IMG/VR virus record: IMGVR_UViG_3300037504_000220
Span: 1 to 23,972 of that record
Reading direction: 5' to 3' (one strand)
From: a virus
Length of the DNA: 23,972 nucleotides
Shown: one piece after another, positions 1 to 23,809 of the stretch
How positions within the stretch are numbered: position 1 is the stretch's first letter
Layout of the letters: every line of letters starts with the position of its first letter
Notes under the pieces: generated by a model
What the model saw: only the letters and a program-made list of their open reading frames with translations
The model's database searches: none
Told to the model about the DNA's origin: nothing
Program-made: the position numbers and the translations under genes

Positions 1-243
1 CGCAGAAAGCATGTGGATTGTGGCAAAGTGTGCCTCTGCTTCATCACAGAAACCCTTATCATGAGAGCACCCAAACGACAAGTTTCTAATTATCTCTAAA
101 TTGCGATTCATATTTATTCCTTTCAGATAAGCCTCGAACTTTGTAAGGCATTCACTCAGCAGCAGGCGTATCCTCTCGTTGTCTATTTTCAACCTGTCTC
201 TGTCTTGCTGAATTCCGCACCCGGCATCATAATCGCATTCCAC
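1..243 (-). CDS. Partial small hypothetical protein, cut by the window edge
   Basis: A minus-strand frame stays open for 81 codons from a GTG at 243 to the window edge, so the C-terminus lies outside. The GTG has a good Shine-Dalgarno (AAGGA, 7 bases upstream). A second in-frame start, ATG at 111, also has its own AAAGGA about 6 bases upstream, so a shorter product of the same frame is possible. The visible protein begins MECDYDAGCGIQQDRDRLKI, is charged and helical in character, and has several cysteines. I recognise no family. It begins about 25 bases after attC-like repeat A, the same arrangement as the neighbouring small genes, so it looks like another one-gene cassette. Confidence 0.5.
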   Translation of the reverse strand, partial: MECDYDAGCGIQQDRDRLKIDNERIRLLLSECLTKFEAYLKGINMNRNLEIIRNLSFGCSHDKGFCDEAEAHFATIHMLSA

Positions 244-267
244 GTTATTTTCCTTCCATAGCCCGCA

Positions 268-326
268 GGCTAACAACCAGCTCCAGCCGACGCGCTACGC
301 GCGCGCATGACCGCTGGCGGTTAGCT
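268..326 (+). repeat. attC-like imperfect hairpin repeat, copy A
   Basis: The outer arms are GGCTAAC (268-274) and GTTAGCT (320-326). The left 13 bases from GCTAAC pair with the right end with about two mismatches, and the centre is GCGC-rich. Left half and core resemble integron attC sites such as that of aadA1: TAACAA, then AGCCGACGC, then a short GCGC hairpin, then GTTAG. Copies B and C share the core CAGCCGACGCGCTACGCGCG. The 16 bases at 262-277 (cccgcaggctaacaac) are identical to 1131-1146 in copy C. Judged by the TAACAA end, attC polarity is plus, opposite to the adjacent genes. Confidence 0.6.
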
Positions 327-665
327 GGCTGGTGCGTCAGCAAGCGTCTTGCCGCAGATTTGGCAATACTGTCCTGGATCCAGTCCATCGCTCATGGCTT
401 CCCGCACCTCCGCGAGTATCGCCCGGCATGCTTCCGCCGGGTCTGGGAGTCCGCACATGGACGCGATGCGGTTCAGCCTGCGAGCGAATACAGTCTCTGC
501 ATACCTTTCTGCTGCTAGCATGATATTCTCAGCGTCCTCCATTGCCACAGGGCACCCATCGCCGTCCAATGCGTTGACGCTATCAGCGATTCGCTTCGTG
601 AATTTGAACTCCAGCGTCCAGCCTATTTCTGCACAGCTTTTATCAGCACGAGGGAACACGTTCAT
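321..665 (-). CDS. Small hypothetical protein with C-terminal CxxC
   Basis: A 114-residue product. The ATG at 665 is chosen because it has a strong GGAGGT 7 bases upstream; a longer reading from a TTG at 701 would start inside repeat B. The protein is mostly helical, with an alanine/arginine-rich middle (AERYAETVFARRLNRIASMC) and a C-terminal CQICGK that could be half of a zinc site. No family recognised. The TAA stop at 321-323 lies inside the GTTAGC arm of repeat A, and the start lies just after repeat B, so the gene fills the whole space between two attC-like repeats. Function unknown. Confidence 0.6.
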   Translation of the reverse strand: MNVFPRADKSCAEIGWTLEFKFTKRIADSVNALDGDGCPVAMEDAENIMLAAERYAETVFARRLNRIASMCGLPDPAEACRAILAEVREAMSDGLDPGQYCQICGKTLADAPAS

Positions 666-692
666 GGCTAATACCTCCGGCAGTAAGATGCC

Positions 693-735
693 AGCTAACA
701 ACGCGCTCCAGCCGACGCGCTACGCGCGCGCATGA
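693..735 (+). repeat. attC-like repeat, copy B (right arm missing)
   Basis: The left arm AGCTAAC (693-699) is followed by the same core as copies A and C, CAGCCGACGCGCTACGCGCG. After CATGA at 735 the similarity stops, so the matching right arm seen in A and C is absent. The last codons and TAG stop of the next minus-strand gene lie inside the core. The repeat therefore supplies the C-terminus HARA of that protein, and read on the plus strand it encodes NALQPTRYARA. Confidence 0.55.
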
Positions 736-1112
736 GCGTCGTATGCCGACCAGAAGTGCTCCTCGGCCCCAAGGTCTCGCATATCCTGTACCAGCTTCCG
801 CAAGCCTGCGATTAGTTCGTTCTTTTGCCGCAGCGCAAACTCAAGTCGTTCGATTTCGATAGCGGCGGCATCGTTTGCACCTTTTGCGACCCTGCGTCTG
901 GCCTGCTGAAGCGGAGTAGTAGGGTGTTCATCTGTCGCTCTAGTTGTGCCCTCATATTGCCTAGAATCACATGTTCCAAGGATTTGCTCGGATACTGACT
1001 CAATGATCAAGTCGTGACACGCAATTTCCCGGCTCAGGCGGTCAATAGCCTCGTCGTCTAGGTCTTTTAGCAGGTCGAATATGTTGATTGTTATGGTTCC
1101 GTCTTTGTTCAC
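720..1112 (-). CDS. Small hypothetical coiled-coil protein ending inside repeat B
   Basis: A 130-residue product starting at a GTG (1110-1112) with AAAGGG about 6 bases upstream. The N-terminus (TITINIFDLLKDLDDEAIDR) is acidic. Residues from about 80 to 115 (IERLEFALRQKNELIAGLRK) look like a short coiled coil. The last five residues and the stop codon are encoded by attC-like repeat B, which suggests that the original 3' end was replaced or extended when the repeat joined it. No family recognised. It lies between repeats C and B in line with its neighbours and is probably translated from a shared transcript. Confidence 0.6.
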   Translation of the reverse strand: MNKDGTITINIFDLLKDLDDEAIDRLSREIACHDLIIESVSEQILGTCDSRQYEGTTRATDEHPTTPLQQARRRVAKGANDAAAIEIERLEFALRQKNELIAGLRKLVQDMRDLGAEEHFWSAYDAHARA

Positions 1113-1136
1113 GGCAATCCCTTTCTATATCCCGCA

Positions 1137-1196
1137 GGCTAACAACGCGATACAGCCGACGCGCTACGCGCGCGCCTGACCGCTGCGGGGTTATCT
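1137..1196 (+). repeat. attC-like imperfect hairpin repeat, copy C
   Basis: The arms are GGCTAAC (1137-1143) and GTTATCT (1190-1196). The core is the same as in A and B, CAGCCGACGCGCTACGCGCG. The right flank CTGACCGCTG resembles copy A's ATGACCGCTG. It sits between the stop codon of the HTH gene (1207) and the GTG start of the next gene (1112). Repeat starts A, B and C are spaced 425 and 444 bases, one small gene per interval. Confidence 0.6.
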
Positions 1197-1206
1197 GGGG
1201 CCGGTG

Positions 1207-1431
1207 CTAACTCAACATGCAAGCCGATTCCGTCTCTGCGTACTGTTCATGCAGGTAGCACAGAATTTCGTAATTGTCTTGAGACATACGACGCTGCCCT
1301 AGCCGCCATTTCGTGACGGCCTGGTTGGAGACGCCCATCCATTGGGCCACGGATGATGGGCCGCCTAGCTCGTCGATGAGCTGCCGGACGACATACGTCG
1401 GCGCGTCGGTGCGGTCGATGGTGTTTGGCAT
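1207..1431 (-). CDS. Small HTH DNA-binding protein (Cro/YdaS-like)
   Basis: A 74-residue protein. Residues about 24-45 fit a Cro/CI-type helix-turn-helix: GGPSSVAQWMGVSNQAVTKW, with the GVSNQAVTKW recognition helix followed by the arginines of RLGQRRMS. Size and pattern match the YdaS/Cro group of phage regulators that bind operators as dimers. The ATG at 1431 has AAGGAG 7 bases upstream. It is transcribed divergently from the plus-strand secreted-protein gene across a 143-base gap containing a promoter and a pair of GC-rich direct repeats, so it could control that gene or itself. The C-terminal 20 residues are not recognised. Whether it represses or activates cannot be seen. Confidence 0.75.
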   Translation of the reverse strand: MPNTIDRTDAPTYVVRQLIDELGGPSSVAQWMGVSNQAVTKWRLGQRRMSQDNYEILCYLHEQYAETESACMLS

Positions 1432-19313: not shown

Positions 19314-19586
19314 TTATGTGATTCTGGTCATCGGTGGACGATACTCAAATCTGCACCCGCACATGGTGCACATGCAATAGACAGTGCGACCTTTTTCTGC
19401 GGTGTGCGCGTGTCGCTCTATGCGTGGGACCATTCCACGGCCACACTTAGGACACACCATGCCTGGCACGCGATCAGGAATGACCACATCGACAACTTCC
19501 TGATACTCTGTGCGCTGATCGCCCTTCTTTGGACGTCCTCGCTTACGATTTGGCTGTTCCATTCTGTCATGCAATCCATTCTGCAT
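19314..19586 (-). CDS. AT-hook plus zinc-ribbon protein
   Basis: A 90-residue protein. ATG at 19586 has AAAGGAG 6 bases upstream; it overlaps the preceding gene by 20 bases. Residues 15-23 (KRGRPKKGD) match an AT-hook minor-groove DNA-binding motif. Cys45/Cys48 (CPKCG) and Cys73/Cys76 (CTMCG) form a zinc ribbon with a 24-residue spacing. Such a pair suggests a small nucleic-acid binding regulator, comparable in scale to Com- or Ogr-type phage proteins but not clearly homologous. Its stop is directly followed by the parS-like palindrome and a stem-loop. Confidence 0.65.
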   Translation of the reverse strand: MQNGLHDRMEQPNRKRGRPKKGDQRTEYQEVVDVVIPDRVPGMVCPKCGRGMVPRIERHAHTAEKGRTVYCMCTMCGCRFEYRPPMTRIT

Positions 19587-20148
19587 TTGTGTCTCCTTTC
19601 GTGACGGTTATGTTGCAGAAATTGCGGAGGTATCTGACGACTCCAGCAGTCTGTTTGCGCTCCTTGTCCCATCGCGTCTTTCCGCTGTTGTCTGATTCTT
19701 CGTTTTCGTGCCTGGTGCGACCAGTGCAATAGTCAGCGCCGGCCATGTCACATCCATAGACATGCACACTGTTCACTCCAAGCGTTGCAGTCAGCGCAAT
19801 CGCATAGGTAATGCTGTACTTCATACGCAATTCATTCGGAATCATCTCTCGTACGCATTCCTTCGAGAAGATAGGTATTTCCTTGGGCAGCAAATTGTCA
19901 TCACCACGACGAATCGTCGCTGATACCGGGTTGCACGTTAAGACTGCCTGCATGTTCAAGTGCTTCGGCCGCATATGATGGTAAGCCTCCTCGTCGAGGC
20001 ATGACCAGATCGTGAGGCCGTCTGTGATTGGCCACATCTGAATTGCGTCATTTAGTACGATCCAGATCGGGTACCCTGTCGGCTGATCCAAAATGCCTGA
20101 ATCAATCAGGCTGGGCCCAGGGCAGATTATCGCGCATGACGCCTTCAT
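19567..20148 (-). CDS. MptE/DUF115-like (Rossmann-type) protein
   Basis: A 193-residue protein. ATG at 20148 overlaps the glycosyltransferase stop as ATGA. The N-terminus ASCAIICPGPSLIDSG carries the GPSL loop after a beta strand, and the C-terminal YSITYAIALTATLGVNSVHV leads into YGCDMAG (131-137), both hallmarks of the DUF115/MptE-like group, which also resembles some sialyltransferase folds. Members use nucleotide-linked donors. It pairs with the upstream GT8-like gene, suggesting joint modification of a glycan or virion protein. The substrate cannot be read from sequence. Confidence 0.6.
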   Translation of the reverse strand: MKASCAIICPGPSLIDSGILDQPTGYPIWIVLNDAIQMWPITDGLTIWSCLDEEAYHHMRPKHLNMQAVLTCNPVSATIRRGDDNLLPKEIPIFSKECVREMIPNELRMKYSITYAIALTATLGVNSVHVYGCDMAGADYCTGRTRHENEESDNSGKTRWDKERKQTAGVVRYLRNFCNITVTKGDTNAEWIA

Positions 20149-20795
20149 TTATTGTCCTTTTGTCCCATGATTTTGTCGTACAGCGCGCGCACGGTCTGCT
20201 TTCCTGCCTGTCCATGCCCGTGCAAGGTGTGTGTTGGCTCATCAGCGTATGTGTGGCTGTGGTTCCATTTTCGATCGAGTAACTTGCCGTCTGATAGTCT
20301 CCACGCAGCCGTTGCTATGATCTCGTCATAATACGCACGACGGGCCGCCTTGCTGTTTTTGTATTTTTTCCATAAGTGTGCAAATTTGAGGAAAAATATC
20401 GTTGGACTAATCTCCCGACACAAAATGAGACCGCTATTCATCTCGACACCGCATTCTGGAATCGATCTGTATGTCCTTTTCCCAGGATCCTCAGCCATAT
20501 ACAGTCCAGGCGGCAACATCGATAGTTGCTCCGGGTTTCTCAGAAAAACCAGATCAAGATCACATGCAACCACGGTTTCGTATCTTTGCGCATAATCGCA
20601 AAGACACGTCGCCTTGATCCATCCTGCCTTTTGTAAGGCGCCTGTTGTTTCAGGTTCAACCACATCCGACAGGGTATAATTAGACGCAAACACAACGTCC
20701 CCGCTGTATCCAGTGCGTTTGAGCATTTCGTACCATATCACAGCGTCCCGCGTGATACGATTGCCGAATGCCGGCGCTATGATTACCATGTTCAT
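20145..20795 (-). CDS. GT8-like glycosyltransferase
   Basis: A 216-residue protein. The ATG at 20795 is chosen because AGGAA lies 10 bases upstream and it leaves a 13-base gap from the terminase; a longer TTG/ATG reading to 20846 would overlap it. Motifs of GT-A, GT8-type enzymes: a DxD metal-binding site CDLDLVF (Asp79, Asp81), EMNSGLIL at 118-125 comparable with the F-N-S-G-V loop, YDEIIATAAW, and a C-terminal HGHGQAGK like H-x-x-G-x-x-K. It would transfer a sugar from a nucleotide donor. Short for the family, with no membrane segment. Candidate roles are capsid/fiber glycosylation or alteration of the host surface. Confidence 0.65.
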   Translation of the reverse strand: MNMVIIAPAFGNRITRDAVIWYEMLKRTGYSGDVVFASNYTLSDVVEPETTGALQKAGWIKATCLCDYAQRYETVVACDLDLVFLRNPEQLSMLPPGLYMAEDPGKRTYRSIPECGVEMNSGLILCREISPTIFFLKFAHLWKKYKNSKAARRAYYDEIIATAAWRLSDGKLLDRKWNHSHTYADEPTHTLHGHGQAGKQTVRALYDKIMGQKDNK

Positions 20796-22812: not shown

Positions 22813-22962
22813 TCACAAAATATAGCCTAGGATCGACATCAGGATTGCCCCGAGTAGTAGCGATATCCAGAGCAATAAAAACACTATTGCCCACGCTGCG
22901 TCGGCGATTGAGTTAAGCTGCTTCCAGCCGCCATCATACGATAGTGATACACGGTCTTTCAT
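22813..22962 (-). CDS. Tiny single-span membrane protein (49 residues)
   Basis: ATG at 22962 with GGAG 8 bases upstream, stop at 22813. The first 23 residues are soluble (MKDRVSLSYDGGWKQLNSIA). Residues 24-47 (WAIVFLLLWISLLLGAILMS and on) form one strong membrane span ending at the C-terminus. Such tail-anchored shapes occur in phage toxins, holins and inhibitors, but no family is recognised. It sits between attC-like repeat E and a lone GTTGGGC box (22804-22810), so it looks like a one-gene cassette in the terminase gap. Confidence 0.65.
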   Translation of the reverse strand: MKDRVSLSYDGGWKQLNSIADAAWAIVFLLLWISLLLGAILMSILGYIL

Positions 22963-22981: not shown

Positions 22982-23038
22982 GCCCAACAAGGCGATTCAG
23001 CGGGACGGCTTCGCCGCCCCTGATCTTGGTGATTAGCC
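22982..23038 (+). repeat. attC-like repeat, copy E
   Basis: Begins with GCCCAAC (22982-22988), matching the attC box RYYYAAC, then CAAGGCGATTCAGCGGGACG, an inner hairpin GGG-a-CGGC-ttc-GCCG-c-CCC, and ends with GATTAGCC. A matching GTTGGGC, the complementary box, lies at 22804-22810 on the far side of the tiny membrane gene. Left arm and core match copy D, and more distantly A-C. Confidence 0.5.
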
Positions 23039-23040
23039 TG

Positions 23041-23205
23041 CTATATACTTCGCTTTGCAGGTGGCGGCGTACGCCGTGGACGTGGTGGCGGCGATTTGAG
23101 CCTGCGCCCTGGCCTATCCATGTCCACCCGCAGCGCCCACAGCAATAAACGTGTGGCTAGCAGCATTCCGCCTCCAGCTATGGCAATCGCGAAAAGTTGC
23201 TCCAT
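23041..23205 (-). CDS. Tiny single-span membrane protein (54 residues)
   Basis: ATG at 23205 with AAAGGA about 10 bases upstream. An upstream non-ATG extension would run through repeat D and is unlikely. Residues 1-23 (MEQLFAIAIAGGGMLLATRL and on) form one membrane span; the rest is basic and proline-rich (RPGRRLKSPPPRPRRTPPPA), presumably cytoplasmic. It resembles no family I know; small phage membrane effectors often have this plan. It lies between attC-like repeats D and E, in the gap between small and large terminase genes. Confidence 0.65.
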   Translation of the reverse strand: MEQLFAIAIAGGGMLLATRLLLWALRVDMDRPGRRLKSPPPRPRRTPPPAKRSI

Positions 23206-23231: not shown

Positions 23232-23274
23232 GGCCAAAAACGCGATTCAGCGGACCGCTTCGCGGCGCGCTGAT
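23232..23274 (+). repeat. attC-like repeat, copy D
   Basis: GGCCAAA (23232-23238), then AACGCGATTCAGCGGACCGC and a nested hairpin CAGCG-ga-CCGC-ttc-GCGG-cg-CGCTG, ending CTGAT. The stretch GCGATTCAGCGG is identical to copy E. The outer right arm is degenerate. It lies between the small terminase stop (23288) and the 54-residue membrane-protein gene. Confidence 0.45.
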
Positions 23275-23287
23275 GGTGTCATTGTTC

Positions 23288-23809
23288 TCATGCACCTGGG
23301 TTATCTTTTGCAAAGTTAAGCGCCTCAGCAATTTCGGACTCTATAACCTTGGTTATCTGCTGCTTCGCGTCGATTGAGACGTTCAGCCTTTTGCAAACGA
23401 TTTGCGGGATGTTTGCAAGCCTATCACCGATCTTGTCTCGAAGGTTGTAAAGCGCCTGTTGCATCGTTTTACGCTCGACCAACTTTCCTTGCATCTGTTT
23501 CAGCTCAAGCTGTGCCTTTTCGTTCTGCAGAAATGCATTCCGCGCTTTCTCTCGCTGTGCTGCCAGCACGTAGGTTCGCACAGGTATTCGTACGATCGCG
23601 TCATATGGACACTTGCCTGGTAGCTTCTGGTCTGATGCAACGCCATCGCTGTCACCAGTCACGCCGATGTTCTTGCCGTTCTGGTCGCACCATTCGACCC
23701 ACGCCTCATAGTCTATTTCCCGAGGCGCTCCTTGGCTCCGCCAGTTGCTGATTGTTGATTGCGGGACTCCAAGCTGAATGGCAAGTCCTGCCCAAGATGG
23801 TCTAGGCAT
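23288..23809 (-). CDS. Terminase small subunit (probable)
   Basis: A 173-residue protein. ATG at 23809 with AAGGG 7 bases upstream. Residues ~5-30 (WAGLAIQLGVPQSTISNWRS) are a helix-turn-helix for binding the packaging site. Residues ~80-115 form a basic coiled coil (AQREKARNAFLQNEKAQLEL), followed by GKLVERKTMQQALYNLRDKI and LANIPQIVCKRLNVSIDAKQ, the usual Nu1/DUF1441-type C-terminal layout in which the A-R-x-x-x-x-P segment recurs. It recognises phage DNA and hands it to the large subunit. Normally the two terminase genes adjoin; here about 530 bases with two tiny genes and two repeats separate them. Confidence 0.75.
   Translation of the reverse strand: MPRPSWAGLAIQLGVPQSTISNWRSQGAPREIDYEAWVEWCDQNGKNIGVTGDSDGVASDQKLPGKCPYDAIVRIPVRTYVLAAQREKARNAFLQNEKAQLELKQMQGKLVERKTMQQALYNLRDKIGDRLANIPQIVCKRLNVSIDAKQQITKVIESEIAEALNFAKDNPGA

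Follow-up and report, generated by a model that had tools for sequence, protein, structure and literature searches.

Integron gene cassettes are shuffling units known to spread antibiotic resistance. The two ends of a single cassette match, a rule familiar from the integron literature, and the gene usually lies on the same strand as its attC site, although this is not absolute. The origin of the cassettes is unsettled, and the direction of the gene with respect to attC is taken to follow from the requirement that the integron promoter express it. In cluster K mycobacteriophages, the start-associated sequences (SAS/ESAS), repeats with inverted arms, lie just upstream of the start codons of small genes.

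Arrays of attC sites in phages have already been published. The main text of Qi et al. (2023; PMC9892861) describes integrase-less clusters of attC sites (CALINs) in the phages TJE1, PH101, P12002L and MW202573, and reports IntI1-mediated recombination with attI1 for five of the six phage sites assayed, which came from TJE1, PH101 and P12002L. The bottom strands of these sites on average outperformed the top strands. The PH101 sites tested there may differ from those scored here. The main text presents the TJE1 and PH101 arrays as typical and contains no reference to a reversal of their genes.

The locus described here is in an IMG/VR record of 23,972 bases, a fragment that was analysed in full (the window). 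Family searches recognized a small and a large terminase, a lambda-type portal protein and a head-protease/capsid protein, showing that the window derives from a tailed phage, and nearly all of its genes are on the minus strand. A lone plus-strand gene (1575-2063) has a signal-peptide-like start and matches no family, while two genes at 19567-20795 occupy an unusual place between the large terminase and portal genes, the second displaying a weak match to nucleotide-diphospho-sugar transferases. Searches with DNA, the portal protein and gene 3 identified no close relative of the phage, and an empty-site comparison is thus impossible in this case.

Table 1. attC sites, neighbouring genes and module ends in the window. 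R1 and R2 are the covariance models described in the text; bit scores are followed by E-values, which are rough.
Feature	Position	Strand	Description	R1	R2
attC site A	268..326	+	R'' GGCTAAC 268-274; R' GTTAGCT 320-326	29.1 bits, E 2.4e-5	36.7 bits, E 2.1e-6
attC site B	693..747	+	R'' AGCTAAC 693-699; R' decayed, GTATGCC 741-747	19.6 bits, E 0.0067	29.5 bits, E 8.4e-5
attC site C	1137..1196	+	R'' GGCTAAC 1137-1143; R' GTTATCT 1190-1196	26.9 bits, E 8.9e-5	34.8 bits, E 5.5e-6
attC-like site D	22982..23038	+	Between small genes beside the terminase genes	14.5 bits, E 0.14	24.5 bits, E 0.001
Degenerate attC-like core E	23233..23290	+	Weak; only the hairpin 23245-23274 recognized	10.6 bits, E 1.4	12.5 bits, E 0.46
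Gene 1	1..243	-	GTG start at 243; truncated by the fragment end; antisense to A; no family match		
Gene 2	321..665	-	114 aa; cassette flanked by A and B; stop codon within the R' box of A; no convincing family match		
Gene 3	720..1112	-	130 aa; between B and C; stop codon within B; phrog_32847 (phage family), E 1.6e-11		
Gene 4	1207..1431	-	74 aa; Cro/YdaS-like regulator adjoining R' of C; P22_Cro E 3.5e-5 and YdaS E 2.3e-5, both under the curated cut-off		
Small membrane-type gene	22813..22962	-	Start 19 nt from D; no PHROG match		
Small gene between D and E	23041..23205	-	Start ATG at 23205 is our own reading, not chosen by the gene caller; no Pfam match		
Gene-2 module end	320..328	+	GTTAGCTGG; complementary to 691-699		
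Gene-2 module, other end	691..699	+	CCAGCTAAC; 9-nt match to 320-328		

A preliminary description of the window, made from its sequence alone, had proposed that three attC-like repeats (A, B and C) separate tiny genes. The repeats were found at the positions given there; they form a single three-copy family whose starts are spaced 425 and 444 bases apart, with one small gene in each interval. Three copies of the 20-mer CAGCCGACGCGCTACGCGCG are present in the record, and IMG/VR contains no further match to it. A strict RYYYAAC...GTTRRRY pattern missed the window sites and covariance models were therefore used. Model R1 drew on 15 attC sites taken from class 1 integrons on plasmids and from bacterial chromosomes, all outside the window, and model R2 was based on 44 sites located on other viral contigs. 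Of the checks suggested in the preliminary description, the covariance search favoured the attC proposal: R1, applied to both strands of the 24 kb with filters off, ranked A, C and B first to third. In another check, folding of the repeats, the single-strand folds were not distinctive (z -0.3 to -2.1), and an Rfam search gave no meaningful match. Since an independent attC model places the three repeats at the top, a chance resemblance to attC is very unlikely, and the repeats are real attC sites. A, B and C fit both models, D fits R2 only and E neither.

In all three repeats the inner L''/L' helix carries an extrahelical base (GCCG-A-CG). Compared with RYYYAAC/GTTRRRY the outer boxes of A depart from the consensus once per side. 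Of the right arms noted previously as complementary in A and C, that of A is GTTAGCT, facing GGCTAAC, and that of C, GTTATCT, is weaker. The decayed R' box of B had been overlooked. The extrahelical A in GCCGAC places the attC orientation of the window sites on the plus strand, as does the R1 score of site A, 29.1 bits on that strand versus 11.2 on the minus strand. D and E are two more attC-like sites that lie upstream of small genes, far from the A-C array.

Every gene beside these sites is on the minus strand and every site is on the plus strand. The genes are thus antisense to attC, an arrangement that had escaped the preliminary description and departs from the usual layout of a cassette. 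The sites lie ahead of the genes, and the R'' box (the left, TAAC arm) is separated from the start codon by 24, 27, 24 and 19 nt at A, B, C and D, respectively. The module containing gene 2 consists of one gene with matching 9-nt ends (Table 1), whereas the end of the gene 3 module has decayed. The product of gene 3 is ~30% identical to proteins of Vibrio and Pseudoalteromonas phages. Gene 4 probably marks the edge of the array and is a candidate cassette at most.

The TIGR02249 profile of integron integrases found no match anywhere in the record, which is a fragment. A CALIN is defined by at least two neighbouring attC sites without an integrase; A, B and C lie within 0.93 kb of one another and, as the fragment has no integron integrase, the locus can be described as a CALIN in a phage. 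Lacking intI, it does not qualify as a complete integron, in which an intI gene and an attI site adjoin the array. The covariance scores, the module ends and the presence of the same core in Competibacter-like attC sites all support the earlier proposal of integrase-less attC cassettes in a phage. The further statement that these genes were collected as in a CALIN covers only part of the picture, because they face the opposite way to their sites, which the genes of bacterial CALINs do not. The exact 20-nt core was also found in Competibacter-, Contendobacter- and Deltaproteobacteria-type genomes, mostly within attC sites, and four of the eight core-bearing genomes checked contain an integron integrase above the family cut-off. 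On one Competibacter-like contig intI (4260-5198, plus strand) adjoins four attC sites on the opposite strand, a textbook integron. These findings suggest, without proving it, a host of this kind for the window phage.

The generality of the reversed layout, hereafter termed mirror as opposed to canonical, was explored by scanning IMG/VR with a gapped attC pattern, which returned at least 120 loci; R1 detects sites in about half of the loci listed. Gene orientation was taken from a codon-usage gene caller in place of a crude longest-ORF count, which had shown a weaker contrast (46 antisense versus 33 in the viral set), probably because shadow ORFs were picked. Among the matches listed, genes flanking attC sites on viral contigs comprised 208 antisense and 37 co-oriented, in a sample that is limited to AGCCGAC-type sites and relies on home-made gene calls and on an IMG/VR classification that can be wrong. 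The corresponding numbers for bacterial sites were 4 and 56, and a second sample collected through R1 alone gave 2 and 18, a total of 6:74. Because sites on the same contig do not count as independent observations, the comparison was repeated per contig with duplicates removed. Of the viral contigs among the matches listed, 28 were mirror and 9 canonical, whereas the bacterial ones numbered 0 and 14 (Fisher p 6e-7), a test that still includes some related phages. The mirror layout is therefore general across the phages checked. In one 66-kb phage the direction of attC flips with that of the genes, eight plus sites lying among minus genes and eight minus sites among plus genes. The two arrays of eight sites each (L189, 16194-19421; L190, 5421-7546) point in opposite directions and each is antisense to its genes. 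A contig binned as Parachlamydia (L022, 1-7771) carries a dense canonical cassette array of about ten attC sites, possibly through a binning error.

Several mirror contigs encode a terminase. An integrase above the cut-off was detected in only 3 of the 38 viral contigs among the matches listed (L070, L072 and L120), none of which is a clear mirror array; in 28, several of them longer than 40 kb, the integrase family was not matched at all, and a further seven gave weak matches only. The covariance models also identified the mirror layout in phages that were annotated independently in GenBank, PH101 (NC_029094) and ctTUS972 (MW202573), whereas TJE1 is canonical. A blastn search of cultured phages with mirror-site DNA returned nothing, although the covariance model did find such sites. 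The published phage CALINs and the present locus are both integrase-less attC clusters with small genes as cassettes, and for some of the published sites the main text of PMC9892861 demonstrates that they are IntI1 substrates; the difference is that our models score the genes of PH101 and MW202573, but not those of TJE1, as antisense to attC. Clusters of attC in phages are thus known, whereas no earlier report of a systematic mirror orientation was found in the open-access papers searched, including the main text of PMC9892861.

The modules of the viral arrays display several properties of cassettes. Past GTTRR, complementarity between the two ends of a gene module extends to 4.35 of 6 positions, with at least five matching in 54.6% of cases (n=119). 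By comparison, the two boxes of the same site match at 2.46 positions (6.7%) and ends shuffled within a locus at 2.62 (6%). The matched ends are longer than those of bacterial modules. Homologous genes occur in otherwise different arrays, next to different neighbours, with the homology bounded by the boxes (L066/L116, L089/L094 and L132/L157). Among 171 aligned blocks over a site, 19 extend at least 10 nt past R'' into the leader but only two do so past R'; as the blocks stop at R', the breakpoints are placed at this box, which is where integrases cut. The L''/L' helix of viral sites shows compensatory changes, and conservation is seen in the extrahelical base and in both outer boxes. The distance from site to start codon is constant (median 23.5 nt), and leader and site are often conserved jointly. 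Arrays that share a gene often differ in the hairpin core on both sides of it, a pattern not expected under a simple cassette model. The homologous genes of L066 (8873-9250), L116 (2143-2520), L089 and L094 keep ~10-13 nt matched terminal repeats, and different hairpin cores flank them on both sides, as if swapped independently of the genes. In the related phages L081 and L109 the attC content differs, with a divergence too great for exact junctions to be defined. Among the genes carried are DNA methyltransferases and an HNH endonuclease that belong to phage families. Matches to PHROG were obtained for three of nine randomly drawn mirror cassettes and three of ten bacterial ones, rates that do not separate the two. 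Relative to sedentary chromosomal and class 1 integrons, the phage arrays have in common the attC architecture, single-gene modules, matching ends and one direction per array; they differ in lacking an integrase, in genes antisense to attC and in longer matched ends. The SAS/ESAS elements, likened here by description only, resemble the phage sites in place and inverted arms, while the features described here are those of attC.

We consider it likely that the small genes between the window repeats are integron-type cassettes of a tailed phage, antisense to the integron attC sites that the repeats form and drawn from a phage pool that is moved in trans. Counting against this interpretation are the degeneracy of B, D and E, the canonical layout of TJE1 and of nine viral contigs among the matches listed, and the cores that differ around shared genes. 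The same degeneracy, together with the constant spacing to the start codon, the joint conservation of leader and site and the uniform orientation of sites relative to genes, would fit attC-derived or attC-like sequences that have become fixed intergenic elements (a terminator, an RNA hairpin or a start-associated sequence upstream of the ribosome-binding site) and are not recombination sites. This we regard as unlikely, as terminators would not give matching module ends or shared modules bounded by boxes, conservation extends to the extrahelical base and the two outer boxes, and the main text of PMC9892861 reports recombination of PH101 sites.

Phages might move the modules with a recombinase of their own that is not closely related to IntI, a proposal that gains from the incompleteness of the fragment, in which gene 1 runs off the end, and from module ends that match over a longer stretch than in bacteria. 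It is nevertheless improbable given how rarely the viral contigs match the integrase family, a search that covers integrase-family recombinases only, and given that the sites retain the features read by integron integrases, those of PH101 reportedly working with IntI1 in the main text of PMC9892861. Slightly less probable still is the acquisition of ordinary bacterial cassettes whose genes are reversed by chance. Every gene beside the window sites is reversed, the bias recurs in 28 of 37 viral contigs among the matches listed and in none of 14 bacterial ones, and gene 3 belongs to a phage family, even though the exact core is common in Competibacter-like attC sites and reversed genes do exist in bacterial arrays (6 of 80 flanks).

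For the window the arrangement itself is established (the identity of the sites, their orientation and the matching ends of the gene-2 module), as are, in other phages, matching ends in general and modules that recur in unrelated arrays; mobility is inferred. The attC site lies just upstream of the start codon, with the interval of about 24 nt leaving room for a ribosome-binding site, and the bottom strand, the one recombined by integron integrases, is the coding strand of the gene. The cassettes may belong to a pool circulating among phages and, because the phages lack an integrase, are assumed to be recombined in trans by the integrases of integron-bearing hosts. They would be expressed through the phage operon instead of an integron promoter. 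Mirror polarity could then be maintained because recombination fixes the direction of attC in each array, such that only operon-facing cassettes would be expressed. Integrases recombine the bottom strand with about a thousandfold preference, and folding is helped on the lagging-strand template (PMC8946536). Being the coding strand in mirror arrays, the bottom strand is the lagging-strand template when transcription and the fork are co-directional, and easier hairpin formation may thus also favour mirror polarity. As B, D and E are degenerate, the array of the window phage may now be mostly inert.

A broader proposal, for which we see the case as evenly balanced, is that phages have a separate pool of cassettes in common, the mirror image of the bacterial one, with attC upstream of the gene and the recombining strand as the coding strand, so that such a cassette would function in a phage operon but would lie antisense to the promoter once inserted at a bacterial attI. 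Mirror arrays are a ready route to phage accessory genes, such as DNA methyltransferases. If the proposal is true, a large phage pool of opposite polarity would mean that phages shuffle accessory genes with host integrases, a simple sequence test would tell phage cassettes from bacterial ones, and both the origin of cassettes and the choice of strand would become testable.
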